NCBI RefSeq assembly: GCF_025244825.1
Contig: NZ_CP104263.1
Span: 1,736,001 to 1,800,000, forward strand
Length of the DNA: 64,000 bases
DNA from: Arthrobacter jinronghuae
Lineage (GTDB): Bacteria; Actinomycetota; Actinomycetes; Actinomycetales; Micrococcaceae
Direction: 5' to 3'
Part shown: positions 46,601-60,883 of the stretch, in pieces
Layout of the letters: every line of letters starts with the position of its first letter
Numbering within the stretch: position 1 is the first letter of the stretch
The notes under the pieces: model-generated
What the model was told of the DNA's origin: nothing
Seen by the model: only the letters and a program-made list of their open reading frames with translations
Database searches by the model: none
Program-made: the position numbers and the translations under genes

Positions 46601-48103
46601 TTGAGTATCGATCCCTCCGCAAAACCCGTGCCTCCTGCCGGAACCTCCGGGCACGCGGCAACGACGCGGGCTCCGTCCACCCTGGATCCCCGCACCAAGA
46701 CCGTGATCGGCCTGCTGCTGGTCTCCTCGTTCGTGGTCATCCTGAACGAAACAATCATGAGCGTGGCCCTGCCCCGGCTCATGGCTGACCTGGACATCAC
46801 TGCCGGAACCGCCCAGTGGCTGACCACGGGCTTTATGCTGACGATGGCCGTGGTCATTCCGGCCACCGGCTTCCTGCTGCAGCGTTTTTCCATGCGCGGC
46901 CTGTTCCTGACCGCCATGTCCCTCTTCAGCGCCGGGACGCTGCTGGCAGCCCTGGCCCCCGGGTTCGGCACCCTGCTGGGCGGCCGGATCATCCAGGCCG
47001 GCGGCACCGCCATCATGCTGCCGCTGCTGATGACCACCGTCCTGAACGCTGTTCCGGCCCATAAGCGCGGACAGATGATGGGCACCATTTCCATCGTCAT
47101 CGCAGTTGCACCCGCCATCGGCCCGACGGTCTCCGGCATCATCCTCAACGCGCTCGACTGGCGCTGGATGTTCTGGCTGGTCCTGCCCATTGCCCTGCTG
47201 TCGCTGGGCCTTGGCGCGTTGAAGATCCAGAATCTTACTGAAACCAAGCGCCTGCCGTTCGACGTGCTGTCGATCGTGTTGTCCACCTTCGCGTTCGGCG
47301 GGCTCATCTTCGGCCTCAGCAGCATCGGCGAGGCCGCTCAGGGCAAGGAACTGATGCCGCTGTGGATCCCGCTGACCGTCGGCGTCCTGGCCATGGCCGG
47401 CTTTGTGCTGCGCCAGCTGGTCCTCCAGCGTACCGACCGCGCCCTGATGGACCTGCGCACCTTCACCAGCAAGCCCTTCGTGGTGGCGATCATCATGGTC
47501 CTCGTGTCCATGATGGCGCTGTTCGGCTGCCTGATCGTGCTGCCCCTGTACCTGCAGAACGTCCTGGGCCTGGACACGCTTCGCACCGGCCTGCTGCTGC
47601 TCCCCGGCGGCGCCGTGATGGCCGTTCTCTCGCCGATTGTCGGCAACCTGTTTGACCGTTTCGGTCCGCGACCGCTGGTGGTTCCGGGCGCCCTGGTGCT
47701 CAGCGGTGCCCTGTGGGGGATGACCCTGCTGACGGAAGAAACCCCCGTGGGCCTCGTGATCCTGCTGCACTGCTTCCTGAACGCCGGGCTGGGGTTCATC
47801 TTCACTCCGCTGTTCACCTCGGCCCTGGGTTCGCTGGACAAGTCCCTGTACTCCCACGGCAGCGCCATCATCAACACGCTGCAGCAGCTTGCCGGTGCAG
47901 CGGGAACGGCCGTCTTCATCACCCTGATGACCACGGGCACGACGGCGGCCCTGGCCGACGGCGCGTCACCGGTCTCCGCTGCGGCCTCGGGCGTGCACAC
48001 GGCGTTCTTCTGGGGAGCCGTTGTTTCGTTGGTGGCCGTCGCGGCGTCGTTCCTGGTCCGCCGGCCCACCAACGAACTGCCCGAGGGTGTGGCTATCCAC
48101 TAA
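46601..48103 (+). CDS. MFS transporter, DHA2 family multidrug efflux
   Basis: A 500-residue, 14-TM pump. VVILNETIMSVALPRLMADL in TM1 is the DHA2 motif D2/signature of EmrB/QacA-like efflux proteins; RIIQAGGTAIMLPLLMTTVL and the motif C region IAVAPAIGPTVSGIIL mark antiporters. The TTG start has AGGA eleven bases upstream. It converges on the mycofactocin glycosyltransferase gene: the two stop codons overlap by bases 48100-48103 with no terminator between them. Confidence 0.9.
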   Translation: MSIDPSAKPVPPAGTSGHAATTRAPSTLDPRTKTVIGLLLVSSFVVILNETIMSVALPRLMADLDITAGTAQWLTTGFMLTMAVVIPATGFLLQRFSMRGLFLTAMSLFSAGTLLAALAPGFGTLLGGRIIQAGGTAIMLPLLMTTVLNAVPAHKRGQMMGTISIVIAVAPAIGPTVSGIILNALDWRWMFWLVLPIALLSLGLGALKIQNLTETKRLPFDVLSIVLSTFAFGGLIFGLSSIGEAAQGKELMPLWIPLTVGVLAMAGFVLRQLVLQRTDRALMDLRTFTSKPFVVAIIMVLVSMMALFGCLIVLPLYLQNVLGLDTLRTGLLLLPGGAVMAVLSPIVGNLFDRFGPRPLVVPGALVLSGALWGMTLLTEETPVGLVILLHCFLNAGLGFIFTPLFTSALGSLDKSLYSHGSAIINTLQQLAGAAGTAVFITLMTTGTTAALADGASPVSAAASGVHTAFFWGAVVSLVAVAASFLVRRPTNELPEGVAIH

Positions 48104-49521
48104 GGCCGTCGGCGCCGTCGGGTAGTACGGAGGCCGGTGATTTCCGGCAGCAGCGCTCCCGCCGAGTGTCCCCGGACCGCCCCCAACCACACTCCGGCGC
48201 CGTAGGCCAGATCATCCAGGCGGCGGGCCACAGCGAACCGGACGGGATCCAGCTCGGCCCCGGTGCGCCGGTACTCCACGGCAGCGTCCACCATTCCGGC
48301 GAGAAGCGCTGCCCGGCGCAGGCGACCGGAAAACAGGCAGCCCACGGCCGTCAGCGGCCACCAGTGCCGCAGCAGCAGCGCTGATCCCTGCCCCAGTGCA
48401 GCCAGGACGCCCTGTCCCACGAGGACTGATGCCAGCCGCAGGGGCTTTGGACTGCGCCGGAGGCGTCGGGCCAGTCGCAGGGCGGTGGCCGCCGCCAGAG
48501 CGGCGGCCACCGGCAGTGACCAGCGGCGCTGGGCCAAAAGGGCGAGAAGGAACGCGACGCTCCACGGTGCCAGCACCGCAGGGGCCACGTTGCTGCCGTG
48601 CCGCCGGGAAAGCTCGTGCGCCCCGGTCCCGTAGAACATCTTGCGTGCAAGCCACGGTACAAGCTCCCGCCGGTGCTCGTGCCGGGCAGCCACCGACGCG
48701 TCGTAACGCACGCGCTTGCCCTCACGGACCAGGTTCCAGACCAGATCCACGTCTTCCGCGACCCGCAGTTCGGCGCTGAATCCGCCTCCAAGCGCCTCCA
48801 CGCGTCCCACCAGACACGCCGCGGGGAGCCATGACACCGTCCCGCGTGGATGCACCAGTGCCGGGCGCCTGCCCAGATCGAGGGAGGACCGGGAATCCTC
48901 ATAACGGCAGATCCACCCGGCGTCATTGCCCGGATTCCAGCCCAGGATCCGCGGCGCAACAAGCGCTACGCCGGGATCGGCGAAATGCCGCAGCAGTGCA
49001 GGAACGGTCCCGGGATCCAGCACCATGTCGGAATCCACAAACGCCACGTAGGGTGTCCGGACCCGTGCCAGCCCGGCATTGCGGGCAGCCGCGGGCCCCG
49101 CGTTCACCGCCAGGGGAACATACTCGGCAGCGTAGGCGGACGCGGCGTCGGCGATCGGCTGCGGGGACAGGGAAGCGTCATCCACCACCACCACGCGCTG
49201 TCCCGGACCGATACTCTGCAGCAGCCGGCGCAGGTGGTCCGGGCGGTCCCGCACGGGCACCACGAACGTCACTGCCTTGTCGGCCGGTGCCGCAAGGCTG
49301 GCGGCCGCGGGGTCGGCCATCCCGAAGGCAAGCAGTTTCTCCGCCAGCTCTGCGGAAGGGCCGTCGCTGACCGAGAAGCCGCCTGTTGCGAGCAGATCCC
49401 GTGCCGCCGCGCCTGGGAACAGTACGCGCAGGGGAGAACCGCCGGTGAGCACCTGCGCCCTGCCGCCCACCCGGACGCTGTCGGAGAGCCGGATGCCGAA
49501 GCCGATGGGAAGGCCGGTCAC
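48100..49521 (-). CDS. mftF: Mycofactocin glycosyltransferase MftF
   Basis: A 473-residue family 2 glycosyltransferase. In mycobacteria MftF adds an oligosaccharide to the mycofactocin core. The GT-A domain holds VVVVDDAS and VAFVDSDM (DxD-type metal site) within residues about 85-190, then DVDLVWNLVREGKRVRYD. The C-terminal part is hydrophobic, with several membrane-associated helices. GTG start overlapping the mftE stop (GTGA at 49518-49521). The last gene of the leftward mft operon. Confidence 0.92.
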   Translation of the reverse strand: MTGLPIGFGIRLSDSVRVGGRAQVLTGGSPLRVLFPGAAARDLLATGGFSVSDGPSAELAEKLLAFGMADPAAASLAAPADKAVTFVVPVRDRPDHLRRLLQSIGPGQRVVVVDDASLSPQPIADAASAYAAEYVPLAVNAGPAAARNAGLARVRTPYVAFVDSDMVLDPGTVPALLRHFADPGVALVAPRILGWNPGNDAGWICRYEDSRSSLDLGRRPALVHPRGTVSWLPAACLVGRVEALGGGFSAELRVAEDVDLVWNLVREGKRVRYDASVAARHEHRRELVPWLARKMFYGTGAHELSRRHGSNVAPAVLAPWSVAFLLALLAQRRWSLPVAAALAAATALRLARRLRRSPKPLRLASVLVGQGVLAALGQGSALLLRHWWPLTAVGCLFSGRLRRAALLAGMVDAAVEYRRTGAELDPVRFAVARRLDDLAYGAGVWLGAVRGHSAGALLPEITGLRTTRRRRRP

Positions 49522-50264
49522 GGAACTGCCGCCGGCAGAGGCTGGAGACACCCGTAGCGATCCGGAGCGCCGGACAGGCGGGCGGCCACGGCCCCGGCGG
49601 CGCCCGCGAGGAGCTCCTGCCCTTCCGCCGCGGAGGCCCCGGCCGGGTCGCCCAGGACGCCGAGCGGGGAGACAGCCTTCACGCCGCGGGACCGCAGCAC
49701 CGGCATCAGCTCGGGAAGCGGGCGTATGTTGCCGCAGACTGCCCGGTCCAGGCGGACGTTCCCGGGCGATAAATACAGCATCAGCGACGTTTCCGTCCGG
49801 CCCGCATGGGCATCCCCGGGTCCGAAGGTACAGGGCACCCATCCGACCGAGTGGTTCTCGGCAAGCAGCTGCCCCACCGCCCGGACCAGTCCCGCAGCGT
49901 TTCCTCCGTGTGCGTTGACGAAGACAATCCGGCGCGCCCAGGTCGAAAGCGAGCGGACCAGCTCCACCAGCATCAGGTTCAGTGCCTCATGTCCCAGCGA
50001 CACCGTGCCGGGAAAGTCCTGATGCTCCCCGCTGGCACCATAGGCCAGCGCCGGGGCGACGACGACGTCGGCCCGCCGGGTCATCGCGGCAGCCTCCGCC
50101 GCGACCGCCGCCGCAATCACGGTATCCGTGTCCAGCGGCAGGTGCGGGCCGTGCTGTTCGGTGGAGCCGGTGGGCACCAGGACCGTGGCCCCCTTGCGGA
50201 CCTCCGGCCAGGTCCGTGCAGCCAGGCTCCACGACGTCGGCGGCAAGGGCGTGGACGGTGCCAC
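49518..50264 (-). CDS. mftE: Mycofactocin peptidase MftE (creatininase family)
   Basis: A 248-residue metal-dependent amidohydrolase that releases the C-terminal Val-Tyr-derived dipeptide from the modified MftA. GSTEQHGPHLPLDTDTVIA (metal-binding His, Glu and Asp), VNAHGGNAAGL and TFGPGDAHAGRTETSLML carry the creatininase ligands. GTG start adjoining the mftD stop with no gap, an AGGG-type site lying inside mftD. Position between mftD and mftF is the canonical order. Confidence 0.93.
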   Translation of the reverse strand: MAPSTPLPPTSWSLAARTWPEVRKGATVLVPTGSTEQHGPHLPLDTDTVIAAAVAAEAAAMTRRADVVVAPALAYGASGEHQDFPGTVSLGHEALNLMLVELVRSLSTWARRIVFVNAHGGNAAGLVRAVGQLLAENHSVGWVPCTFGPGDAHAGRTETSLMLYLSPGNVRLDRAVCGNIRPLPELMPVLRSRGVKAVSPLGVLGDPAGASAAEGQELLAGAAGAVAARLSGAPDRYGCLQPLPAAVP

Positions 50265-51461
50265 TCAGCTTTCCCTGTCCTTGGGCGGGTCTCCCACTGA
50301 CCTGGTGAACCCGGGCGGAATGACCAGGTCCTCGGGACGCAGTTCATGGATGGAGGTCTTCCCCAGCCCCCGCAGGGCGGAGTCCAAGCCGCCCTGGAGA
50401 ATGTCCAGGACGTTCTCCACCCCTGCCTGGCCGTTCGCGGCCAGGCCCCAGAGGTAGGCCCGGCCGATCATCACGGCCCGGGCACCCAGGGCCAACGCCT
50501 TGGCCACGTCGCTGCCGCGCCGGATACCCCCGTCGAGCAGCACCTCAACCTGGCCGCCGACGGCCTGGGCGACGGCGGGGAGGAGCCGGATGGTGGCCGG
50601 GGTGCCGTCGAGGTTGTTGCCGCCGTGGTTGGAGACAGACAGTGCGGTGACGCCGGCGTCGACCGCCCGGCGGGCATCATCCACGCGTGTGACGCCCTTG
50701 AGCATAAACGGCCCTCCCCACGTCTCGCGCAGCCAGGCCACGTCCTCCCAGGTAGGCGGCGGGGTCTGCATCCACTCGCCGTACGCCCCGAAGAAGGTGG
50801 GGGCTTCACCTCCCGGCGGGACCAGGTTCGGCACCGTCAGGTCCGGTACCCGGCCGGACCGGGCAAAAGCCAGCAGCCAGCGGGGATGCGGAATGACTTC
50901 CGGAGCCAGTCGGGTCATGGCCTTCAGCGTCATCTTTTCCGGGATCACCGGGCTGCCCCAGTCCCGGCCGTTGGAGAAGGACCAGTCCAGAGTGGAGATC
51001 AGTCCCGTGGCACCGGCGGCCCGGGCACGCTCCATCCGCTGGACCATCGCCTCCCGCGTTCCGCTCCAGTACATCTGGAAGAACAGCTGGGGAGCAGCCG
51101 CTCCTACCTGTTCCACGGGTTTACTGGCGAACGAACTCAGGCTCATCACGGTGCCGCGGTTTGCTGCCGCACGTGCCACTGCTACCTCGCCCTCGGGGTG
51201 CACGGCCTGCACTCCGGTGGGGGAGATGATCACCGGCAGCGCGATTTGCTGCCCCATGACCGTGGTGGTCAGGTCGCGCTTTGCGGACTGTCCGACCACG
51301 TGCGGGGCGAAGCCCAGCTCCGAAAACGCGGCAATGTTGTCCTCCACGGTGACGCCGCGCTCCGACCCGGCGACCAGGGCTCCGTAGACGGACTTCGGCA
51401 GGTTTCTCTTAGCACGGCGCTGGGCCTCGGCAACGGTTTCGAACCAGGGATTGGTGAACAT
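50265..51461 (-). CDS. mftD: Mycofactocin dehydrogenase MftD (FMN-dependent)
   Basis: A 398-residue TIM-barrel flavoprotein of the alpha-hydroxyacid dehydrogenase family. In mycofactocin maturation MftD turns the released 3-amino-5-(p-hydroxybenzyl)-4,4-dimethyl-2-pyrrolidinone core into its alpha-keto amide (pre-mycofactocin). LPVIISPTGVQAVHPEGE, SLSSFASKPVEQV, SVSNHGGNNLDGTPA (active-site His region) and LLDGGIRRGSDVAKALALGA (FMN phosphate site) are clear. ATG 51461 has AAAGG seven bases upstream. Confidence 0.94.
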   Translation of the reverse strand: MFTNPWFETVAEAQRRAKRNLPKSVYGALVAGSERGVTVEDNIAAFSELGFAPHVVGQSAKRDLTTTVMGQQIALPVIISPTGVQAVHPEGEVAVARAAANRGTVMSLSSFASKPVEQVGAAAPQLFFQMYWSGTREAMVQRMERARAAGATGLISTLDWSFSNGRDWGSPVIPEKMTLKAMTRLAPEVIPHPRWLLAFARSGRVPDLTVPNLVPPGGEAPTFFGAYGEWMQTPPPTWEDVAWLRETWGGPFMLKGVTRVDDARRAVDAGVTALSVSNHGGNNLDGTPATIRLLPAVAQAVGGQVEVLLDGGIRRGSDVAKALALGARAVMIGRAYLWGLAANGQAGVENVLDILQGGLDSALRGLGKTSIHELRPEDLVIPPGFTRSVGDPPKDRES

Positions 51462-51492
51462 GGCACTGCCTTTCATGGTTGAGACTGGATCT

Positions 51493-52458
51493 TCAGGTCG
51501 CGAACACTGCGCTTACGGCAGGTGCAACGTCCCGGTAGGTATGGATGGTTCGGGCGGTACCGCGTCCTTCCCGGGCGAGCTCACGGCCCAGTTCGACGTC
51601 GGTTTCGGCACTGGTGTCGATCAGGACGTCCAGCCGAGGCAGGCGTGCAGCGGCAATCCGGGGATCCGGGCCGGCGTTGTGGACGCAGTCCGAGAGCAGC
51701 AGCACCCTCGCGTCCCTGACCGGGATCCGCAGCAGTTCACGATGGGCGAGCTCCAGCGGAAAGCTGATGTTGGTGAGCCCCCGGGCCGGGATGCGCAGCA
51801 GCGTGTCCAACAGCTCCATCGGCTTCAGCTCGGAGCCCAGCGGCAGCAGCAGGGCGGCATCGGACCAGAAGGCAATAACTGCCAGCGCGTCGCGGTGCAG
51901 TTCGGCGGCCAACGCCCCCACAGTGGCGGCGGCCGTCTGCAGGCGTTCGCCCTTCATCGACCCCGAAACGTCCACCGCGAGCACCACGGACCGGCGGGTG
52001 CGCACCCGGTCCCGGACCACGATGTCTTCATCTTCGGGGACCGGCCGTTCGGCCAGCACTTCCAGTGTCCGGTCCAGATCGATGTCATCGCTGCCGCCCC
52101 GGTAGGGCAGACTGGCGAGCGATCCGCTGCCGCGGCGCGGCACCGCGTCCGCCCGCGGTCGGGGCACGGACAGCAGGGCGGCGATATGCCGCACCCGTGC
52201 GCGGACCGCCGGGTCCACAGGCACCGGGGTTACCTCGGCAGCGGCCGATGCAGCGGCATCATCGGTGAATCCCGGGCGGGATACCCCGGGAGGGGCCGCG
52301 CCGCCCGGACTGCGGCGGCGTGCTCCGGCAGGCTGGATCACCGCGCCCGGCCCACCGCCGGGCACCGGCTCAAACACGGAGGGATCCTCGGTCAGCTGTT
52401 TCGGGGCGCGGCGCAGCGGCGGGCGCCGGTCCGGCCTGCGCCCGGTGCGTCGCGACAC
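51493..52458 (-). CDS. VWA-domain protein, CoxE-like, in the mycofactocin cluster
   Basis: A 321-residue soluble protein. Residues 1-150 are Pro/Arg/Gly-rich and largely disordered. The von Willebrand A domain (about 155-300) has the metal site DVSGSMKG (DxSxS at 163-167), LTNISFPLELAH with the Thr, and LLLSDCVHN with the Asp. The VWA partner of a MoxR ATPase usually inserts metal centres or remodels an enzyme. The gene lies 24 bases after the MoxR gene and 31 before mftD, so it is part of the mft operon here. It is not a canonical mft gene. Confidence 0.85.
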   Translation of the reverse strand: MSRRTGRRPDRRPPLRRAPKQLTEDPSVFEPVPGGGPGAVIQPAGARRRSPGGAAPPGVSRPGFTDDAAASAAAEVTPVPVDPAVRARVRHIAALLSVPRPRADAVPRRGSGSLASLPYRGGSDDIDLDRTLEVLAERPVPEDEDIVVRDRVRTRRSVVLAVDVSGSMKGERLQTAAATVGALAAELHRDALAVIAFWSDAALLLPLGSELKPMELLDTLLRIPARGLTNISFPLELAHRELLRIPVRDARVLLLSDCVHNAGPDPRIAAARLPRLDVLIDTSAETDVELGRELAREGRGTARTIHTYRDVAPAVSAVFAT

Positions 52459-52482
52459 CGGCGAATCGGCGGAAACCTCTCT

Positions 52483-53394
52483 TCAACCCGGTGCCGCCGC
52501 GGCAGGATTAAGGATGAAGTGGTCTTCCCAGATCTCCCGCAGCACCCGTTCAGGAGTCGTCTCGGCCGCTTCGTCCAGGTGGATCCGTCCCGAGAGGGAA
52601 ACCGCCATCGCGTCATAGACCAACTCGCGGTAGCCGGCGCCACCCGGATCGGAGATCCTGCGGAGTCCGGCGAGCTGGCCGGACACCAGGACGCAGTCAA
52701 TGGCGCCGCGGACGCTGGAGCCCTGGCGGATATCCGGATGGTTCCGGGTGGCGCGCGTCAGTGCCACGGCGTCGGCGATGAGGGCTTCTCCGAGTACCCC
52801 CGGCGCGCTGGTGCGCAGTGCCACGATGCCGCGCTCGGCGTCGTCGTCCTGATAGCCGACGGCGAGCCGGTTCAAACGGTCATGCACGGAAGTGGAAAGC
52901 CGGGTGGTGCCCTGGTTGTCGTAGGGATTCATGGACGCGATCACCCGGAATGTGTCCTGGGCCGGGATGTTGCCGACACGCGGGACCGCGATGGAACGGT
53001 CCGCCATGGCAGCCAGCAGCGTGTTGAGCGTGTCCTCCGGAGCCCGGTTGAATTCTTCGATGTAAAGGAATCCGCCGGTCTGCATTGCTTCCACCAGGGG
53101 ACCGGCAACGAAGTTGTCCGCACTGTAGTCCTCGCGCAGTACCCGTGCCGGGTTGTGGTGTCCTACGAGTTTGGACGGGGTCAGATCCGCGTTCCCCTCG
53201 ACGAAGAGCAGCGGAATGCCCCATTCGGCAGTGATGGCCTTGAGCATGGTGGTTTTGCTGGTGCCCGGAGGGCCCTCCAGGACAATGTCGCGGCCGGCGG
53301 CGACGGCCGCGAGCGTAAGTTCCAGCTCACGCTCGCGGCCGACGAGGTGCGCGGCGATGCGGTCCCGGGTGGCCCCGATATCCGTGGTCTGCAC
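52483..53394 (-). CDS. MoxR-type AAA+ ATPase in the mycofactocin cluster
   Basis: A 303-residue AAA+ protein. Walker A GPPGTSKTT (residues 41-49), Walker B FLYIEEFNRA (about 109-117), sensor FRVIASMNPYDNQG, and an arginine-finger region LSTSVHDRLNRLAVGY. It resembles MoxR/CoxD ATPases that act with VWA proteins in enzyme maturation. GTG 53394 has AAAGGAAC five bases upstream. It sits between SDR1 and the VWA gene, co-directional with the whole mft operon. Confidence 0.88.
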   Translation of the reverse strand: MQTTDIGATRDRIAAHLVGRERELELTLAAVAAGRDIVLEGPPGTSKTTMLKAITAEWGIPLLFVEGNADLTPSKLVGHHNPARVLREDYSADNFVAGPLVEAMQTGGFLYIEEFNRAPEDTLNTLLAAMADRSIAVPRVGNIPAQDTFRVIASMNPYDNQGTTRLSTSVHDRLNRLAVGYQDDDAERGIVALRTSAPGVLGEALIADAVALTRATRNHPDIRQGSSVRGAIDCVLVSGQLAGLRRISDPGGAGYRELVYDAMAVSLSGRIHLDEAAETTPERVLREIWEDHFILNPAAAAPG

Positions 53395-53414
53395 AGGGTT
53401 CCTTTCCCGGCCGG

Positions 53415-54254
53415 TCAGTGAACGGCGCCGCCGGCGTCGACCGGGATCTGGCCGCCGGAAACGTAGTAGGACTGGTCGGAGGCCAGCCATGCCACGGCGT
53501 TGGACACATGCTCGGGCTCGATCCACGCCTTGCCCATGGGATTGGTGCCCGCGAACGCCGCTTCGGCGTCCTCGGCCTGCGGATCGTCCAGTTCGGGCCG
53601 GAACAACTGATAGGTCTTCCGGTTCTTCACCATCGGGGTGTCCACGGAGTTCGGATGGATGGTGTTGACCCGGATCCCGAACGGGCCGAGCTCGTTGGCA
53701 AGCACCTTCATCAGGCCCACAACTGCATGCTTGGTGGTGGTGTACGCCGCGACGTTTGCCAGCCCCTTGAACCCGGCCAGCGAGGAAATGATGACCACTG
53801 AGCCGCCGGGGCCGGACGCGATCAGGTGCTCGGCGGCCGCCTTATAGGTATGCCAGACACCGGTGACGTTGATGTCCATCAGGTCCTGCCAGGACTGCTC
53901 GTCAACCTTGTGCGTGGCAGAACCGAAGGTGAAGATCCCGGCGTTGGCCACCACGATGTCCAGCCTGCCCAGCTGCGCCACCCCCTCGTTCACGGCCGCA
54001 GTGAGCGCCTCAATGTCGCGGACGTCGGCCTCCACCGCAACAATGCGTCGGTCCAGGGCTTCGACCTGCTGCGTTGTTTCCTTGAGATCCTCCGGGGTTG
54101 CCGGGGGATAGAAGTCCGTCACGGTGTCCACCGGTCCGCAGAGATCGACGGCGATGATGTCCGCCCCCTCCCGGGCCAGACGCAGCGCGTGTGCCCGTCC
54201 CTGGCCGCGGGCCGCACCGGTGATAAACGCTACTTTTCCTTCTAGGTTTCCCAT
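53415..54254 (-). CDS. Mycofactocin-coupled SDR oxidoreductase (SDR1)
   Basis: A 279-residue short-chain dehydrogenase of the mycofactocin-coupled family (TIGR03971 type). GNLEGKVAFITGAARGQGRA has the cofactor motif, ADIIAVDLCGPV the family's extended DLC signature, NAG and a Ser in IISSLAG, and YTTTKHAVV as the YxxxK site. Members hold NAD(H) tightly and hand electrons to mycofactocin instead of exchanging NADH. ATG with GAAAAGGAAAG upstream. It is the most divergent of the four copies here. Confidence 0.92.
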   Translation of the reverse strand: MGNLEGKVAFITGAARGQGRAHALRLAREGADIIAVDLCGPVDTVTDFYPPATPEDLKETTQQVEALDRRIVAVEADVRDIEALTAAVNEGVAQLGRLDIVVANAGIFTFGSATHKVDEQSWQDLMDINVTGVWHTYKAAAEHLIASGPGGSVVIISSLAGFKGLANVAAYTTTKHAVVGLMKVLANELGPFGIRVNTIHPNSVDTPMVKNRKTYQLFRPELDDPQAEDAEAAFAGTNPMGKAWIEPEHVSNAVAWLASDQSYYVSGGQIPVDAGGAVH

Positions 54255-54291
54255 GGTGCTTTCCTTTTCTGGGAGTGTGTTGCCGGTCGGT

Positions 54292-55104
54292 TTAGTACTG
54301 GGTAACCCCTGCATCCACGGTCATGGCCAGGGATGTCACGTAGCGGGCCTCGTCGGAGGCGAGGAACAGCACCGCATTGGAAATATCCGCCGGCTGTACG
54401 GCCTGGACGTCCAGCAGGTTGGTTGACATGGCGGCCAGCCGGGCGTGCTCCTCCAGCCAGACGGGAAAGGACTGCATGTCCTCGCCGCTGATCATGGTGG
54501 TCATCACCCCAGTGGGATGGATGGAATTGACCCGGATATGGTGTTCGGCCAGCTCCGTGGCAAAGGCCCGCATCAGTCCCACCACGCCGTGCTTGGCGGC
54601 CACATAGGGGGTCAGGAAGGGCAGTCCCTTCAGCCCTGCGGCGGAGCTGGTGAGAATGATGGAGCCGCCGCCCGCTTCCACCAGATGCGGGGCCGCCAGC
54701 TGTACCGTGTTCCACACCCCGGTGAGATTGATGCCGACGGTTTCCTCCCACATGTCCGGGGTGGTTTCATCCCAGGGCTTCATGATCATGATTCCGGCGT
54801 TCGCGACAACGATGTCCAGTCTGCCCAGCTCGGCCACGCCGGCGTCGAGCACCCGCTGCATGGCGGCCCGGTCCCGGACGTCGGCTTTCGCGGCCACGAT
54901 CCGCCGGTCCAGGGCCTCCACCTCCTTGACCGTCTGCGCCAGGTCCTCTTCCGTGGCGGCCGGGTACTTCACACCCGGGACGGAGTCGCAGAGATCGACC
55001 GCGATGATGTCCGCGCCCTCCTGTGCCAGCCGGATGGCGTGGCTCCGGCCCTGACCGCGGGCGGCACCGGTGATGAACGCTACTTTTCCTTCGACACGCC
55101 CCAT
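54292..55104 (-). CDS. Mycofactocin-coupled SDR oxidoreductase (SDR2)
   Basis: A 270-residue paralogue. It has GRVEGKVAFITGAARGQGRS, VDLCDSVPGVKY, NAGIMIMKPWDETTPDMW in the substrate region and PYVAAKHGVVG as active site. It matches SDR3 along its whole length, including a stretch of about 70 identical bases (54655-54722 with 55493-55560), evidence of recent duplication or gene conversion. ATG with a GGGAG site upstream. Confidence 0.93.
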   Translation of the reverse strand: MGRVEGKVAFITGAARGQGRSHAIRLAQEGADIIAVDLCDSVPGVKYPAATEEDLAQTVKEVEALDRRIVAAKADVRDRAAMQRVLDAGVAELGRLDIVVANAGIMIMKPWDETTPDMWEETVGINLTGVWNTVQLAAPHLVEAGGGSIILTSSAAGLKGLPFLTPYVAAKHGVVGLMRAFATELAEHHIRVNSIHPTGVMTTMISGEDMQSFPVWLEEHARLAAMSTNLLDVQAVQPADISNAVLFLASDEARYVTSLAMTVDAGVTQY

Positions 55105-55126
55105 TGCGTGCTCCCTTCGATTGGTT

Positions 55127-55939
55127 TTAGTACTGGGTGTTGCCGGCGTCGACGGCCATCGCGAGCGAGGTCACGTAACGGGCCTCATCCGAGGCAAGGA
55201 AAAGCACGGCGTTGGATATGTCCACCGGCTGCGTAATGTCCACCGGCAGCAGGTTGGTCATCATGCCGCCGACCCGGGGGTGGGCTTCCAGCATTGAGCC
55301 CATGGCCGCCATCCCGTCGCCGGAAGCCATCGCCGTGTCGACACCGGTGGGATGCACCGTGTTGACCCGGATGTTGTGCTCGGCCAGTTCCGTGGCGAAA
55401 GCACGCATAATTCCCACCACGCCGTGCTTGGCTGCGACATAGGGGGTCAGGACCGGCAGTCCCTTCAGCCCCGCGGCGGAGCTGGTAAGAATGATGGAGC
55501 CGCCGCCCGCTTCCACCAGATGCGGGGCCGCCAGCTGTACCGTGTTCCACACCCCGGTCAGGTTGGTGCCCACGGTGTCGTTCCAGATCTCCGGGGTGAC
55601 CTCGTTCCACGGCTTCATGATGCAGATGCCGGCGTTGGCCACCACGATGTCCAGCCGGCCGAGCTCCGCGACGCCGGTGTCGATGGCTTTCTGCAGGGCG
55701 GCCCGGTCCCGGACGTCGGCTTTGGTGGCGATGATGCGCCGGTCGAGTGCCTCAACTTCCTTGACGGTCTGGGCCAGATCTTCCTCCGTGGCCGACGGGT
55801 AGCCGACCCCCGGCAGGGTGTCGCAGAGGTCCACGGCGATGATGTCCGCGCCCTCCTGTGCCAGCCGGACTGCATGGCTGCGGCCCTGCCCCCGGGCAGC
55901 TCCGGTAATAAAAGCGACTTTTCCTTCTACACGCCCCAT
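55127..55939 (-). CDS. Mycofactocin-coupled SDR oxidoreductase (SDR3)
   Basis: A 270-residue paralogue and near twin of SDR2: identical length, VDLCDTLPGVGY, NAGICIMKPWNEVTPEIW, PYVAAKHGVVGIM. Differences from SDR2 concentrate in the C-terminal lid region (residues about 205-240), which usually shapes substrate specificity. ATG with an AGGAGG-type site upstream. Confidence 0.93.
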   Translation of the reverse strand: MGRVEGKVAFITGAARGQGRSHAVRLAQEGADIIAVDLCDTLPGVGYPSATEEDLAQTVKEVEALDRRIIATKADVRDRAALQKAIDTGVAELGRLDIVVANAGICIMKPWNEVTPEIWNDTVGTNLTGVWNTVQLAAPHLVEAGGGSIILTSSAAGLKGLPVLTPYVAAKHGVVGIMRAFATELAEHNIRVNTVHPTGVDTAMASGDGMAAMGSMLEAHPRVGGMMTNLLPVDITQPVDISNAVLFLASDEARYVTSLAMAVDAGNTQY

Positions 55940-55965
55940 GGCATGCCTCCTGATTTTCGAAAGGG

Positions 55966-56796
55966 TTATTTCGCGGTTGATCCGGCGTCGATGGGAAGGG
56001 TCACGCCCGTGATGTACCGGGCCTCATCGGAAGCGAGGAACAGGACCGCGTTGGAAATGTCCACCGCGTCCACCCACTTGATGGGCAGCACATTCAAGGC
56101 TTGGAACCGTTCCCCGATCTGCTCGCGCGTCGGATTGTCCAGATCGGGTGCGAAGAGGTTGTAGGTGGCACTGTTGTGGATCATGTCCGTATCCACACTT
56201 GTGGGGTGCACGGAATTGACCCGGATCATGTCCGGCGCGAGCTCGAGCGCCAGGGCGCGCATCAACCCGACGACACCGTGCTTCGCAGACACGTAGTGCG
56301 CCAGGTTTGCGATGCCCATCAGTCCGGCGGTGGAGCTGGTCAGGATGATGGATCCGCCGTTCCCGCCGGCGCGCAGATGGGGGATGGCGGCCTTCGCCGT
56401 GTGCCAGACACCGGTCAGGTTGATGTCCAGCATGTCCCCCCATTCCTCATCAGTCAGCTCATCGACGGCGCCGAATCCCGCAATCCCTGCGTTGGCACTG
56501 ACGATGTCCAGCCGCCCCAACTGGGCCACGCCGTCGTCGACCGCGGCCTTGAGCGCGCCGTAATCCCTGACGTCGGCTTCGAGAGCCACGATGCGGCGGT
56601 CCAGCGCCTCCACATCCTTGACGGTCTGCGCCAGGTCCTCAGGAGTAGCCATGGGATAGTGGACGGTGCCCACCTGGTCGCAGAGGTCGACGGCGATGAT
56701 GTCCGCCCCTTCCTGCGCCAGCCGCAGCGCGTGGCTGCGTCCTTGCCCGCGGGCGGCTCCGGTAATGAATGCGACTTTGCCTTCAACACGCCCCAT
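55966..56796 (-). CDS. Mycofactocin-coupled SDR oxidoreductase (SDR4)
   Basis: A 276-residue member lying just downstream of mftC. It has VDLCDQVGTVHY, NAGIAGFGAVDELTDEEW, and HYVSAKHGVVG as active site; the C-terminal region (ATYNLFAPDLDNPTREQIGE) is longer than in SDR2/3 and resembles SDR1. ATG 56796 with AAAGAAGG upstream; an open frame further upstream is non-homologous. Fifty bases separate it from mftC. Confidence 0.93.
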   Translation of the reverse strand: MGRVEGKVAFITGAARGQGRSHALRLAQEGADIIAVDLCDQVGTVHYPMATPEDLAQTVKDVEALDRRIVALEADVRDYGALKAAVDDGVAQLGRLDIVSANAGIAGFGAVDELTDEEWGDMLDINLTGVWHTAKAAIPHLRAGGNGGSIILTSSTAGLMGIANLAHYVSAKHGVVGLMRALALELAPDMIRVNSVHPTSVDTDMIHNSATYNLFAPDLDNPTREQIGERFQALNVLPIKWVDAVDISNAVLFLASDEARYITGVTLPIDAGSTAK

Positions 56797-56845
56797 TGCG
56801 TGTACCTTCTTTCTTTTTTGCGAGCCGCCGGCTGCGGCCCGGATC

Positions 56846-58111
56846 TTAGGTGCCGCAGCTCCCGCCGCAGCCGGATGGAACAGGTGCAGGGTTGAAGCCC
56901 GCGAGCGGATCTTCAGCACAGGCACTGACCGGCGCGGTATCGGGCCGGCGCCGGGAGATGGTGACCGGCACGGGCCCGGTCCGAGGACGCGGGGGAGAGG
57001 TGCGGTGGGAATGGTCTCCGTCGGGGCGGGGCAGGGCTTCCCCGGCCCGCGCCTCGAGGGCTGCCTCGCCCAGTCCCCGGACGCACTCCGGGTCCGGTCC
57101 GTCCAGCGGCAGCCCCGTGAAGAACTTGGCCGCCATGCACCCGCCGCGGCACGTGTCGAAAAACGGGCAGCCGGAGCAGGCCCCGCCGGTCTGCGGGGAA
57201 CGCAGCCGGGTAAAAAGCTCCGAGTGCCGCCATACCTCGGAGAACCCGCCGGGATTGCGGATGCTGCCGGCCAGGAACTCGTCGTGGATGGCAAAGGGAC
57301 AGGCGTAAACGTCGCCCACCGGATCGATCAGGCAGACCACCCGGCCGGCACCGCACATATTCAGCCCCGGCAGGGATCCGCCGTACGCGGACAGGTGGAA
57401 GAAGGAATCGCCGGTGAGCACGTCCTCGCCGTGTTCCACCAGCCAGTCGTAGAGCTCCCGCTGCTGCGCGGCTGTAGGGTGCAGGTCGTCCCAAACATCG
57501 GCGCCGCGGCCGGACGGCCGCAGCCGGGTCAGGCGTAGCTGGGCCTGGTACTTGTCCGCAATGGCCTTGAACGGGTCCAGCTGGGGAATGTTCTGCCGGG
57601 TACAGACCACGGAGATCTTGAAACCGGTGAACCCTGCGTCGGCCATGTTCTGCATGGCGCGCAGCGCGGTGTCGAACGAACCGGGACCGCGGACGGCGTC
57701 ATTGACGTCCGCGGTGGCCCCGTCAAGGGAAATCTGCACGTCGACGTAATCGCTCGCCGCGAGCCGGGCTGCCACGTCGGGAGTGATCTTCACGCCGTTG
57801 GTCGAGAACTTCACCCCCACGTGGTGGGCGGTGGCGTAGTCGACGAGCTCCCAGAAGTCCGGGCGGACCGTGGGCTCCCCGCCGCCGATGTTCACATAGA
57901 ACACCTGCATTCTTTCGAGTTCGTCGATCACCGCCTTGCACTCCAGCGTGGTCAGTTCCCGGGGATCCCGCCGGCCGGAGCTGGAGAGACAGTGGACGCA
58001 GGAGAGGTTGCAGGCGTAGGTCAGTTCCCAGGTGAGGCAGATCGGAGCGTCGAGGCCGGTCTCGAACAGATCGACCAGGGTCCCCGGCCGGGGAGTGGAG
58101 AGCACCGTCAT
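56846..58111 (-). CDS. mftC: Mycofactocin radical SAM maturase MftC
   Basis: A 421-residue radical S-adenosylmethionine SPASM enzyme that decarboxylates the C-terminal Tyr of MftA and then cross-links it to the preceding Val. The radical SAM Cys34, Cys38 and Cys41 are in CNLSCVHC; IGGGEPTVRPDF follows. The SPASM region carries CGAGRVVC, YACPF, and GACSGCPFFDTCRGGCMAAK. The protein has an extra C-terminal tail of Arg/Pro-rich sequence (from about residue 365) ending in GCGGSCGT. ATG overlaps the mftB stop. Confidence 0.95.
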   Translation of the reverse strand: MTVLSTPRPGTLVDLFETGLDAPICLTWELTYACNLSCVHCLSSSGRRDPRELTTLECKAVIDELERMQVFYVNIGGGEPTVRPDFWELVDYATAHHVGVKFSTNGVKITPDVAARLAASDYVDVQISLDGATADVNDAVRGPGSFDTALRAMQNMADAGFTGFKISVVCTRQNIPQLDPFKAIADKYQAQLRLTRLRPSGRGADVWDDLHPTAAQQRELYDWLVEHGEDVLTGDSFFHLSAYGGSLPGLNMCGAGRVVCLIDPVGDVYACPFAIHDEFLAGSIRNPGGFSEVWRHSELFTRLRSPQTGGACSGCPFFDTCRGGCMAAKFFTGLPLDGPDPECVRGLGEAALEARAGEALPRPDGDHSHRTSPPRPRTGPVPVTISRRRPDTAPVSACAEDPLAGFNPAPVPSGCGGSCGT

Positions 58112-58383
58112 GGCGTCCTCTCGATCACCATATTTGAGGAGGCCAGTGCGCCCAGGGCCCGCTGGTAGCGGGGCAGGTCCGCGAGGTCGACGCCGGCGGA
58201 CGCACAGGCCGCGCCGGCACTCGGCTCCGTACGCAGCTGCTGCACGATCGCCAGGAGGGTCGTGTCCTTGAGAAAGGACAGCCGGCGGGTGCCGAAGTGG
58301 TACAGCAGCGCGCCGAAAGGTTCCGGACGGACCGAGACCTGGGGGTGCAGCCGCCAGGGGAGGTTGAGATCAAACGTCTGCAT
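58108..58383 (-). CDS. mftB: Mycofactocin RiPP recognition protein MftB
   Basis: A 91-residue peptide chaperone. It is the RiPP precursor recognition element that presents MftA to MftC. The N-terminal LPWRLHPQVSVRPEPFGALL and HFGTRRLSFLKDTTLLAIVQ are MftB hallmarks. ATG at 58383, 12 bases after the mftA stop; its stop overlaps the mftC start by four bases (ATGA). Confidence 0.93.
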   Translation of the reverse strand: MQTFDLNLPWRLHPQVSVRPEPFGALLYHFGTRRLSFLKDTTLLAIVQQLRTEPSAGAACASAGVDLADLPRYQRALGALASSNMVIERTP

Positions 58384-58395
58384 TCCGCGCCGGTC

Positions 58396-58539
58396 CTAGT
58401 AAACGCCGCACATACCGTCGATGGAGACTTCCTCCACCAGCAGGTCCTCCGTGGCTTCCGGTTCCGCGCCGGTGCGTACGGGTCCTTCGGGGACGGAACC
58501 GGTGAGCGGGGTTGCAATCGGGTCTTGTGCAGCTCGCAT
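58396..58539 (-). CDS. mftA: Mycofactocin precursor peptide MftA
   Basis: A 47-residue RiPP precursor. The C-terminus VEEVSIDGMCGVY is the invariant MftA core; the last Val-Tyr becomes mycofactocin. The leader holds DLLVEEVSID, the MftB-binding part, and a longer N-terminus than the roughly 30 residues of mycobacterial MftA. ATG at 58539 with AAGGAG six bases upstream. First gene of the leftward mft operon, divergent from mftR. It is too short for routine gene finders and may be missed. Confidence 0.96.
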   Translation of the reverse strand: MRAAQDPIATPLTGSVPEGPVRTGAEPEATEDLLVEEVSIDGMCGVY

Positions 58540-58633
58540 TGGTGCTCCTTCTGGCAGAATCCGGCTTCGGCGGCGATACTCTGTGTGCCGGCGAGAGTAA
58601 CGGCACCGAGTGCCATTGGGAAGAGGTAATTTC

Positions 58634-59251
58634 GTGGCAACTGCAGCGGCGTTGGGGAAATCGGAACGAGCCGGCAGGAAACCGGTCACTTCCAAGGCAG
58701 AGCTCAGCCATACGGCGCTGGTCCTCTTTGACCGGAAGGGTTTTGACCAGGTCACCGTGGATGAGATCGCTGCCGCAGCGGGGATAGGCAGGCGGACCTT
58801 TTTCCGGTACTTTCCGTCGAAGAACGATTTGCCGTGGGGAGACTTCGAGGAGCTCCTGGCCCGGATGGACGGGTACCTGGATTCGCTGCCGGAAACCGTG
58901 CCGCTGGCCAGCGCACTCTGCAATGCGGTCATTGAGTTCAACCGGCTGCCGCCCGAGGAGGTTCCGTATCACCGGCAGCGGATGGAACTCCTGCTGGGCG
59001 TTCCTACGCTGCTGGCACACTCCACATTGAGGTACGCTGCCTGGCGGCAGGTGGTGGCCAGGTTTGCCGGCAAGCGGCTGGATCTGCCGGAGAGCAGCCT
59101 CAAGCCCCAGGCGATCGCCTGGGCGCTCCTGGGCTTGTGCCTGGCGGCGTACGAGCAGTGGCTGGAAACAACGGACACGGAACTTACCGGGATCCTGCAG
59201 GAGTCTTTGAAGCTGTTTCCGGATGTTCTGGAGGGGCAGACCGAAGAATAA
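58634..59251 (+). CDS. mftR: Mycofactocin system regulator MftR (TetR family)
   Basis: A 205-residue TetR regulator. LFDRKGFDQVTVDEIAAAAG and GRRTFFRYFPSKNDLPWGDF make up the DNA-binding domain with the MftR signature FRYFPSKNDLPWGDFEELL. It diverges from mftA and should repress the mft operon; mycobacterial MftR responds to long-chain acyl-CoAs. GTG 58634 with AAGAGG eight bases upstream. Confidence 0.92.
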   Translation: MATAAALGKSERAGRKPVTSKAELSHTALVLFDRKGFDQVTVDEIAAAAGIGRRTFFRYFPSKNDLPWGDFEELLARMDGYLDSLPETVPLASALCNAVIEFNRLPPEEVPYHRQRMELLLGVPTLLAHSTLRYAAWRQVVARFAGKRLDLPESSLKPQAIAWALLGLCLAAYEQWLETTDTELTGILQESLKLFPDVLEGQTEE

Positions 59252-59272
59252 CCGGTGCGGATGGGGGTGGAC

Positions 59273-60883
59273 ATGCCGGAGCACTACGACGTGGTTGTGG
59301 TGGGTGGCGGAGGTAGCGGAGTACCCCTCGCTGCCCGTGTGGCTGAGGATCCGGACCGCCGGGTGGCGCTGATTGAGGCAGGTCCGGCTCCGGGCGACCG
59401 GGCCGGGTACCCTTCAGAGCTTCTGGACGCGGGCACTGTGCAAGGCGCAATGCCCGGGCATCCCAACAACTGGTCCTTCCTGGCTGAACTCACTCCAGGC
59501 AGGCCGTATTCAATTGCCCGGGGCAGGATCCTCGGAGGATCGACGGCACTTAACGGGGGCTATTTTGTCCGTGCACCCAAGGAGGATTTTGACCAGTGGG
59601 CCCGAGTGGGAGGGCCGGCGTGGTCCTTTGCCGAGGCGACGAGGCTGTATTCGGCACTCGAAGCGGACCAGGACTTCGGGGCCGTGCCGGGGCACGGATC
59701 GGCGGGCCCGGTGCCGGTGCAGCGGCCGCCGCAGTCCCACAGCATCACCCGTGCCTTCCATCAGGCCGCCCGGGAACTAGGGTTCCCCGAGGAACCGGAT
59801 AAGAACGCCGACGGTGAGCCCGGCGTCGGGCCGGTACCCATGAACGTGGCAGGAGGCCTCCGATGGAATACGGCGCTCACCTATCTGGTGTCCAGGGGTG
59901 TCCCCGCGAACCTGACCATTCTGGGGCAGACCAGAGTCCGCCGGGTCCTCTTCGAGGGCGCCCGTGCAGTGGGCGTCGAGGTGCATTCAGACGGGAAAGT
60001 ATCGGTAATCCAGGGCAACGAGATAGTGCTCTGCGCCGGTGCCATCCAGTCGGCGCACCTGCTGCTGCTCTCAGGCATCGGGCCGGCAGCGGCCCTGCGG
60101 GCGCAAGGCATCCCTGTCACAGCCGACAGACCCGGCGTGGGAGCCGGTTTCACCGACCATCCGGAAGTCGCGGTCCGGTGGACCCCTCGGCGGGGCGTGG
60201 TGGACACCACGGTTCCACGCATCATGGAAAGCTCCCTGAATTTCAATGCCGGCGGGCAGCAGGCGAGCGGTGCGGGTGACCTGGAAATTCTGCCCATGTT
60301 GAAGCCGATGAGTTATCTGCTGTCAGCCGGCACCTCGCGGGTGGGCCGGGCGGGTCACCGCGAGGACCTGGAGTTCCTGGTTGCCCTCCAGGAGGAACAT
60401 GCCAGAGGCCGGCTCACAATTTTGTCCGCCAATCCGGACGTCCAGCCGCGGCTCGAGTACAACTACCTGGCCGTGGAATCCGACCGGCAGCGGATGCGTT
60501 ACGCGGTACGGACAGCCGTAGCCCTCCTTTCGACCCGCGCGTTCCGGCCACTGGTCGCCCGGATCACGGAACCATTGCCGGCCGTCTTGGCTCATGACCA
60601 CCTCCTTGATGAGTGGATGCAGTCAAACCTGGGTACGGCCCTGCACATGAGCGGAACGGCCAGAATGGGACCGCGGCACGATCCGGATTCCGTTGTTGAC
60701 TCTTTCGGCCGCGTCCACGGTATCCACGGACTCCGGGTGGCGGATACCTCGATCCTGCCTACGGCACCGCGGCGCGGACCGGCTGCCACAGCTGTCCTGA
60801 TCGGCGAACTGGTAGCCGGCCATCTGCGCACCGGCGCATCCGGCCGCCCGGACCGCGCACCGGGCCAACCCACCACCCGGTAA
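59273..60883 (+). CDS. mftG: Mycofactocin-associated GMC oxidoreductase MftG
   Basis: A 536-residue FAD-dependent glucose-methanol-choline oxidoreductase. DVVVVGGGGSGVPLAARVAE binds FAD, GRILGGSTALNGGYFVRAP is GMC signature 1, GAIQSAHLLLLSGIGP signature 2, and TALHMSGTARMG with active-site His near the C-terminus. MftG is thought to pass electrons from reduced mycofactocin to the respiratory chain. Starts at 59255, 59261, 59267 and 59273 are in frame; the ATG 59273 has GGGGG upstream. It follows mftR by 21 bases. Confidence 0.92.
   Translation: MPEHYDVVVVGGGGSGVPLAARVAEDPDRRVALIEAGPAPGDRAGYPSELLDAGTVQGAMPGHPNNWSFLAELTPGRPYSIARGRILGGSTALNGGYFVRAPKEDFDQWARVGGPAWSFAEATRLYSALEADQDFGAVPGHGSAGPVPVQRPPQSHSITRAFHQAARELGFPEEPDKNADGEPGVGPVPMNVAGGLRWNTALTYLVSRGVPANLTILGQTRVRRVLFEGARAVGVEVHSDGKVSVIQGNEIVLCAGAIQSAHLLLLSGIGPAAALRAQGIPVTADRPGVGAGFTDHPEVAVRWTPRRGVVDTTVPRIMESSLNFNAGGQQASGAGDLEILPMLKPMSYLLSAGTSRVGRAGHREDLEFLVALQEEHARGRLTILSANPDVQPRLEYNYLAVESDRQRMRYAVRTAVALLSTRAFRPLVARITEPLPAVLAHDHLLDEWMQSNLGTALHMSGTARMGPRHDPDSVVDSFGRVHGIHGLRVADTSILPTAPRRGPAATAVLIGELVAGHLRTGASGRPDRAPGQPTTR

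Follow-up and report, generated by a model that had tools for sequence, protein, structure and literature searches.

Gene content of the locus

The DNA analyzed here is a stretch of 64,000 nucleotides (64 kb) from Arthrobacter jinronghuae (contig NZ_CP104263.1, positions 1,736,001 to 1,800,000), in the following called the window, and stems from a complete genome of 3.64 Mb. It carries a mycofactocin (mft) locus in which six genes are inserted between mftC and mftD on the same strand: four short-chain dehydrogenases/reductases (SDRs) of the mycofactocin-coupled family TIGR03971, a MoxR-family AAA+ ATPase and a protein with a von Willebrand factor type A (VWA) domain. The subject of this analysis is the MoxR-VWA pair and its relation to the adjoining dehydrogenases. 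The genes occupy the minus strand between 58.5 and 48.1 kb, preceded by a divergent plus-strand pair of mftR and mftG:

58396..58539, minus strand: mftA, 47-aa precursor peptide with the end IDGMCGVY (open frame and motif; same C-terminus in many related loci)
58108..58383, minus strand: mftB, peptide chaperone (TIGR03967, 108.6 bits, cut-off 33)
56846..58111, minus strand: mftC, radical SAM maturase (TIGR03962, 652.8 bits, cut-off 265)
55966..56796, minus strand: SDR1, mycofactocin-coupled SDR, start chosen by homology (TIGR03971, 417.6 bits, cut-off 300; nearest structures 3uve, 5ej2 and 3t7c)
55127..55939, minus strand: SDR2, mycofactocin-coupled SDR (TIGR03971, 381.0 bits)
54292..55104, minus strand: SDR3, mycofactocin-coupled SDR (TIGR03971, 385.8 bits)
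53415..54254, minus strand: SDR4, mycofactocin-coupled SDR (TIGR03971, 385.5 bits)
52483..53394, minus strand: MoxR-family AAA+ ATPase of clade A (see below), 303 aa, GTG start (AAA_5 80.5 bits, AAA_3 57.3 bits; invariant Walker A/B residues)
51493..52458, minus strand: VWA-domain partner, 321 aa, with residues of the metal ion-dependent adhesion site (MIDAS) type (VWA_2 45.8 bits, VWA_CoxE 29.1 bits)
50265..51476, minus strand: mftD, pre-mycofactocin synthase (TIGR03966, 705.5 bits, cut-off 470.85)
49518..50264, minus strand: mftE, peptidase (TIGR03964, 310.3 bits, cut-off 172)
48100..49521, minus strand: mftF, glycosyltransferase, GTG start, 4-nt overlap with mftE (TIGR03965, 397.9 bits, cut-off 280)
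58602..58614, no strand: MftR-operator-like core GGCA-N5-TGCC before mftA (pattern from PMC8728441)
58610..59251, plus strand: mftR, TetR-type regulator, true start possibly 58634 (PF17754 MftR C-terminal domain, 127.2 bits)
59255..60883, plus strand: mftG, mycofactocin dehydrogenase (TIGR03970, 448.7 bits, cut-off 387.45)

All twelve frames from mftA to mftF are open and free of internal stops, and the successive gaps between them measure 12, -4, 49, 26, 22, 37, 20, 24, 16, 0 and -4 nt. The genes mftB to mftG as well as all four SDRs (381-418 bits) score above the curated NCBIfam cut-offs, while MoxR, VWA and mftR were identified via Pfam and mftA was recognized by its C-terminal motif. By sequence, the full biosynthetic set of mftA, mftB and mftC plus mftD, mftE and mftF is present. 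The gene calls of a preliminary description of this DNA were correct throughout, and its observation that six genes split mftC from mftD on one strand with short gaps (-4 to 49 nt) is borne out by the NCBIfam and Pfam assignments. Likely starts of mftF, MoxR, SDR1 and SDR4 lie further in than those of the longest open reading frames; for mftF, the longer frame reaching 49842 is not needed. SDR2 and SDR3 share 82% identity, and MftD of the window is 100% identical to MftD of Arthrobacter sp. zg-Y238. The idea that the client block is a recent foreign insert was rejected, as the inserted genes (GC content 0.64-0.72, 0.80-0.84 at third codon positions) resemble the mft genes (0.64-0.72 and 0.69-0.85, respectively).

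All genes of the known mycofactocin cluster, mftABCDEF together with mftR and mftG (PMC3023750; PMC11778925; published statements are cited here and below from excerpts of the respective papers), are found in the window, with an operator-like site before mftA. In contrast to the known cluster, however, the SDRs and the MoxR-VWA pair lie between mftC and mftD, and mftR and mftG lie divergently from the other genes, paired on the plus strand. Like other TIGR03971 enzymes (PMC5264612), the four window SDRs pass the family cut-off, and the structures closest to them are named carveol dehydrogenases. They differ from the SDRs of 15 stand-alone loci fetched for comparison in being encoded together with a MoxR-VWA pair.

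Motifs and family of the MoxR and VWA proteins

In the window, an AAA+ MoxR protein with intact Walker A and B motifs adjoins a VWA protein with MIDAS residues. The Walker residues are invariant in the MoxR alignment (A2), and D163, S165, S167, T229 and D257 of the VWA protein are invariant in the 56 rows of the VWA alignment (A1), each alignment including one row of the sister clade B described below; the clade B consensus likewise retains both kinds of motif. This composition is shared with NorQ-NorD, CbbQ-CbbO, CoxD-CoxE and RavA-ViaA, from which the present pair would differ in its proposed clients, i.e. mycofactocin nicotinoproteins of two folds. Sequence matches of MoxR in the PDB comprise 2r44, CbbQ and NorQ, with midasin as top-scoring match. 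As reported in these excerpts, NorQD remodels its enzyme by inserting iron, which involves ATP hydrolysis and an intact VWA domain (PMC9976466), and CbbQO acts on rubisco.

None of the curated NCBIfam MoxR families was matched above its cut-off by the window protein, the best being GvpN (67.5 bits, cut-off 266.8) and MadB (54.9 bits, cut-off 475). Assignment to the MadB-type AAA ATPases (NF047784) was also rejected for clade B, four members of which reached 49.8-71.8 bits against the same cut-off. An apparent internal TGA in the MoxR genes of three genomes (G409, G387 and G442) was dismissed as well: the tblastn match extends 18-24 nt beyond the end of the open frame, which we read as the alignment overrunning the gene's own stop. 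In the open-licence literature, no report was found that joins mycofactocin with MoxR or von Willebrand, or nicotinoprotein with MoxR, apart from one unrelated expression table, and there was none on NDMA (N,N-dimethyl-4-nitrosoaniline)-dependent enzymes with MoxR among the matches listed.

Occurrence of the split arrangement

For a comparison of gene orders, 80 loci around MftD relatives were taken, representing the best 80 of 588 confirmed. Sixty of them were scorable, having mftC upstream of mftD on the same strand, while 20 were not because of a contig end, mftD lying apart from mftC, or a missing mftC. In 47 of the 60 scorable loci mftC adjoins mftD, and in the other 13 a MoxR-VWA pair lies between the two; a long mftC-mftD gap without MoxR-VWA did not occur in any of the 60. 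The number of SDRs in these 13 inserts varies from zero to six. Inserts were found in Arthrobacter, Compostimonas, Cryobacterium, Subtercola, Herbiconiux, Microbacterium, Agromyces and two Streptomyces. Hence, the split arrangement is a recurrent type in Micrococcaceae, Microbacteriaceae and some Streptomyces and is not peculiar to the window genome. Other layouts exist, as some Rhodococcus clusters have SDRs between mftD and mftE, and elsewhere SDR-like genes lie between mftE and mftF. The earlier statement that mftA to mftF follow one another in known loci therefore holds for most clusters, but not for the 13 with inserts or for those with SDRs elsewhere inside. Since oxidoreductases in other mft cluster regions are already shown in the Figure 2 legend of Haft 2011 (PMC3023750) and the Rhodococcus-type layouts also place dehydrogenases there, user enzymes inside an mft cluster are already known, and it is the MoxR-VWA pair that is new.

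Several further peculiarities were seen in related loci. In several Rhodococcus or Rhodococcoides clusters (L043, L051, L052, L056 and L066), a second MftD-like gene directly follows mftD. In two others (L120 and L123), the SDR matches between mftC and MoxR are fragmented, with MoxR and VWA at full length; the pieces may be decayed genes or assembly errors. The locus of Homoserinimonas sp. OAct 916 (L009, 1-21170) has kept mftR, mftG, SDRs, MoxR, VWA, mftD and mftF, while mftA, mftB, mftC and mftE were not found at the locus and no MftC match was found genome-wide (mftE was sought at the locus only). It resembles Herbiconiux sp. L3-i23, which according to the excerpt has lost mftB, mftC and mftE and kept a potential mftA (PMC11778925), in that genes of the peptide stage have been lost and those of the small-molecule stage retained. 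This gene loss suggests salvage of a mycofactocin precursor from neighbors.

Association of MoxR-VWA with mycofactocin and with two dehydrogenase folds

In the genome samples searched, the MoxR protein is restricted to genomes with MftC almost without exception. In a class-wide sample of 394 genomes, MftC was found in 113 and MoxR (E<=1e-60) in 19, all of which are among the 113 (hypergeometric P 1.5e-11); at the genus level, all 10 MoxR genera fall within the 41 of 138 genera that have MftC (P 2e-6). The order sample of 347 genomes contained 16 with MftC and 12 with MoxR (E<=1e-30), 11 of the latter with MftC. The exception, G196, is an 88% complete assembly of about 570 contigs, in which the short contig with MoxR also bears an mftF-like gene. 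A MoxR that occurs only if MftC does is the type of 'only-if' relation that was used by Haft for mycofactocin-dependent enzymes (PMC3023750).

The related MoxR proteins fall into two clades. Clade A, to which the window protein belongs, is represented by 38 loci scoring 380 bits or more, many of which are closely related to each other; L011, truncated at a contig end, scores below this threshold. Clade B comprises 15 distinct loci, L174 and L180 being one. A TIGR03971-type SDR lies directly upstream of MoxR (<=200 nt, same strand) in 29 of the 38 clade A loci, and a zinc alcohol dehydrogenase does so in 14 of the 15 clade B loci. Of the neighboring dehydrogenases, including those of the hold-out loci below, 17 were run through NCBIfam and all 17 score above the cut-offs; among them are seven zinc enzymes of these clade B loci, which exceed that of TIGR03989, the family of NDMA-dependent zinc alcohol dehydrogenases. 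No TIGR03989 enzyme occurs among the window genes scanned, this family being of another dehydrogenase fold and accompanied by the other MoxR clade. In a quick tree of 64 MoxR proteins, computed with a software warning about long branches in clade B, 32 rows have an SDR, 20 a zinc alcohol dehydrogenase and 12 neither as upstream partner; a single change with support 100 parts SDR from zinc enzyme partners. Within clade A, 32 of 43 rows have the SDR directly upstream, and in 20 of 21 clade B rows the pair directly follows a TIGR03989 enzyme.

At the level of gene content, TIGR03971 SDRs are present in each of the 24 clade A genomes checked, compared with 22 of 41 MftC genomes without clade A (Fisher 3e-5), and all nine clade B genomes checked have TIGR03989, compared with 25 of 40 others (Fisher 0.04). 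The class genomes in this comparison were the 18 MoxR-positive ones other than G000, plus 31 of the 94 MoxR-less MftC genomes, hand-picked to spread genera. Eight genomes carry both a clade A and a clade B pair. In four of them (G084, G127, G442 and G740), both pairs lie behind their respective clients, with only a partial SDR match in G740. A convergent SDR is seen in G426 and G457, and next to the clade A pairs of G387 and G409 the search gave no SDR.

As a hold-out, 50 further genomes with MftD loci were searched, which gave 11 MoxR hits in 10 genomes. One of these loci (L070) was already known, leaving 10 for which predictions had been written beforehand. All five predicted clade B loci have the zinc enzyme. 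Among the five predicted for clade A, L200 and L201 carry a full SDR directly upstream, L202 has a partial SDR match 278 nt upstream, L209 sits in an mft cluster without an SDR, and L203 turned out to be mis-assigned, as it matches clade B better and has a zinc alcohol dehydrogenase. Scores above the cut-offs were obtained for both full SDRs (L200 and L201) and for the zinc enzymes at L203-L208.

Pairs are also found outside mft clusters. No mft biosynthetic gene was present in the stretch examined at 13 clade A loci, by search for L111, L112, L163-L169, L201 and L202 and by annotation for L210 and L211. In seven of these an SDR lies directly upstream (partial in L202), and in three more it adjoins the pair in a different orientation. 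A search of 72,556 plasmid records gave MoxR (E<=1e-30) in two, both Rhodococcus megaplasmids with an adjacent annotated mycofactocin-coupled SDR (L210 on plasmid RQCS_2 of Rhodococcus qingshengii CS98 and L211 on plasmid pmega_1); no mft gene is annotated in the stretch shown. Both plasmid loci are located within or close to sets of catabolic genes, which at one of them encode an acyl-CoA dehydrogenase, a flavin reductase and ring-cleavage dioxygenases. The pattern suggests that MoxR-VWA serves the client dehydrogenases rather than cofactor synthesis.

Plausible co-transcription, regulation and neighboring genes

The block from mftA to mftF plausibly forms one transcript. Co-transcription fits the anatomy because the genes share one strand with short gaps, a single operator-like site lies in front and no consensus signal was seen inside. 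The operator core of mycobacterial MftR has been given as T-N2-GGCA-N5-TGCC-N2-A (PMC8728441, excerpt). A core of this kind, GGCACTCGGTGCC, is located at 58602-58614 between mftR and mftA, its outer bases differing from the mycobacterial pattern. The whole window contains eight matches to the core, and the chance of one falling into the mftR-mftA gap of about 100 bases is near 1%. Of the loci with mftB, 12 of the 27 in clade A and 21 of all 85 have a core at most 450 nt upstream of this gene. Another core inside the operon (51868, in VWA) was discarded, since the 9 kb following mftB in a related locus (L002) contain no equivalent. An internal promoter or terminator splitting the SDR block, which according to the preliminary description would have refuted its idea, was not detected between 48000 and 59400: the scan for sigma-70 consensus sites gave none (1.1 expected), and the five terminator-like sites correspond to chance level (6.0 expected), both scans being weak in a high-GC genome.

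Downstream of mftG, an acyl-CoA dehydrogenase gene (60960-62189, plus strand) follows after 76 nt on the same strand and is conserved at the edge of two related loci (L001 and L002). As long-chain acyl-CoA is reported to be the signal to which the M. smegmatis MftR responds (PMC8728441, excerpt), this pairing with mftG may be meaningful. At the other end, a DHA2-family efflux transporter of the major facilitator superfamily (46601-48103, plus strand; TIGR00711, 305 bits, cut-off 230.2) converges on mftF with a 4-nt end overlap.

Proposed role of MoxR-VWA and alternative explanations

The reading we favor, and consider rather probable, is that MoxR-VWA is a dedicated AAA+ remodeling or reactivation machine for mycofactocin nicotinoproteins, with the clade B sister pair doing the same for zinc alcohol dehydrogenases. 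The operon would then supply mycofactocin, four mycofactocin-dependent SDRs and their own MoxR-VWA machine. MoxR and VWA would form a chaperone-like complex that physically engages the SDRs with their presumably buried, non-exchanged NAD(H) and probably remodels them at the expense of ATP. In this way, the complex might keep the SDRs active, for instance by supplying or resetting their trapped nicotinamide cofactor or by resolving dead-end complexes, whereupon the remodeled enzymes would be re-oxidized by mycofactocin. Sister clade B pairs would act likewise on zinc-dependent NDMA-type alcohol dehydrogenases.

A number of observations weigh against this reading. At nine of the 38 clade A loci, the gene directly upstream is not a full SDR: MoxR follows mftC without a full SDR between them in L005 and L121, only SDR fragments precede it in L120 and L123, the SDR is convergent and located after VWA in L164 and L165, it lies 4 kb away in L166, and no SDR was found near the pair in L167 and L168, a pirin gene preceding MoxR in the latter. 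The clade B exception (L170, 6159-8744, in G457, one of the genomes with both pairs) is a divergent MoxR-VWA pair after a linalool dehydratase/isomerase-like gene (PF18566, 91.9 bits) without a zinc dehydrogenase. Moreover, the match between clade and client is one evolutionary split, and many loci are close relatives; its weight lies in the pairing being kept while the loci moved. MoxR-linked SDRs do not form one clade (11 changes in 126 rows) but are spread over several branches of their tree. For this reason, a sequence signature of linked SDRs was abandoned, and a simple docking signature is not apparent. At the column of SDR1 residue D66, all of 95 linked SDRs carry the residue compared with 55% of 31 unlinked ones, a difference that relatedness alone may cause. 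None of the 15 stand-alone SDR loci from clade A genomes (L181-L195) has a MoxR nearby. Zinc alcohol dehydrogenases are common without clade B too (25 of 40), and no MoxR was found in any of six Mycobacterium or Mycolicibacterium genomes searched. As some MftC genomes rich in TIGR03971 SDRs (12 in G378, 16 in G405 and 13 in G515) lack such a MoxR, the machine is not universally required. Mycobacterial SDRs, moreover, hold their NAD although no such pair accompanies them. Insertion of NAD thus does not depend on the machine in general, and the most fitting role would be repair, or one that only particular SDRs require.

Among the alternatives, the pair might aid mycofactocin biosynthesis, for instance by maturing a metal or iron-sulfur center of MftC or MftE or by acting on MftD, to which it is adjacent in the window. 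Its position between mftC and mftD in all 13 inserts, the two loci with the pair right after mftC (L005 and L121) and the iron insertion by NorQD (PMC9976466, excerpt) agree with this. However, 47 of the 60 scorable loci have no MoxR between mftC and mftD, 94 of the 113 MftC genomes in the class sample are without such a MoxR at E<=1e-60, and many pairs, including the two plasmid-borne ones, adjoin SDRs or zinc alcohol dehydrogenases without any mft biosynthetic gene in the stretch examined, which makes the proposal quite unlikely. A delivery function, in which MoxR-VWA handles the encounter of cofactor and client by docking (oligoglycosylated) mycofactocin at the buried nicotinamide instead of repairing the enzyme, would account equally well for the confinement to MftC genomes and for both client folds; given that MftC genomes have SDRs and zinc alcohol dehydrogenases without the machine, we regard it as unlikely, though the least so of these alternatives.

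The preliminary description had tied supply of the cofactor to its users in one transcript. Plain operon economy of this kind would have supply and users co-expressed under MftR, with MoxR-VWA as an unrelated passenger. The strand, the short gaps, the single operator-like site and the absence of visible internal signals agree with such economy, and to this extent the idea of supply tied to demand in one transcript is compatible with the operon anatomy; it leaves the presence of an AAA+ machine unexplained, however. The treatment of MoxR and VWA as passengers did not hold up, as the pair is the constant part of the insert while the SDRs vary in number, and it adjoins dehydrogenases outside mft clusters too. 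Retention beside a dehydrogenase outside the operon, with a clade that follows the client fold, is unexpected of a passenger, and we consider this explanation very improbable. More doubtful still is a CoxDE-like metal-center assembly pair whose true target is another metalloenzyme. The VWA protein does match the CoxE-like model weakly (29.1 bits, cut-off 26.4), but the direct upstream neighbor is an SDR or zinc alcohol dehydrogenase in 52 of the 64 tree rows. No CO dehydrogenase or molybdenum hydroxylase was found among the window genes scanned around the block, the related neighborhoods not having been screened systematically for molybdenum hydroxylases. Besides, SDRs have no catalytic metal. 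Non-exchangeable NAD is common to both client families (PMC3023750), and in mycobacterial TIGR03971 SDRs, which were crystallized with NAD inside, an insertion buries it (PMC5264612; both from excerpts). Because the client folds share this trapped NAD and not a need for metal, loading, guarding or resetting of the nicotinamide appears preferable to metal insertion as the task of a remodeling machine.

Implications

A broader proposal, for which belief and doubt are about evenly balanced, is that the mycofactocin-restricted MoxR-VWA proteins constitute a hitherto undescribed family of 'nicotinoprotein activases', with two sister pairs, one per unrelated fold, that load, guard or reset trapped NAD(H). 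They would provide cofactor quality control for the mycofactocin redox pool and be mobile with their clients onto plasmids. To our knowledge, it is not settled how enzymes with buried, non-exchangeable NAD acquire it and escape from dead-end states; an AAA+ machine that tracks two unrelated dehydrogenase folds makes this question testable. For heterologous hosts, it would follow that some of these dehydrogenases may be inactive unless MoxR-VWA is supplied. If the proposed role is true, mycofactocin-dependent SDRs and zinc alcohol dehydrogenases would represent a new client class for MoxR-VWA chaperones.

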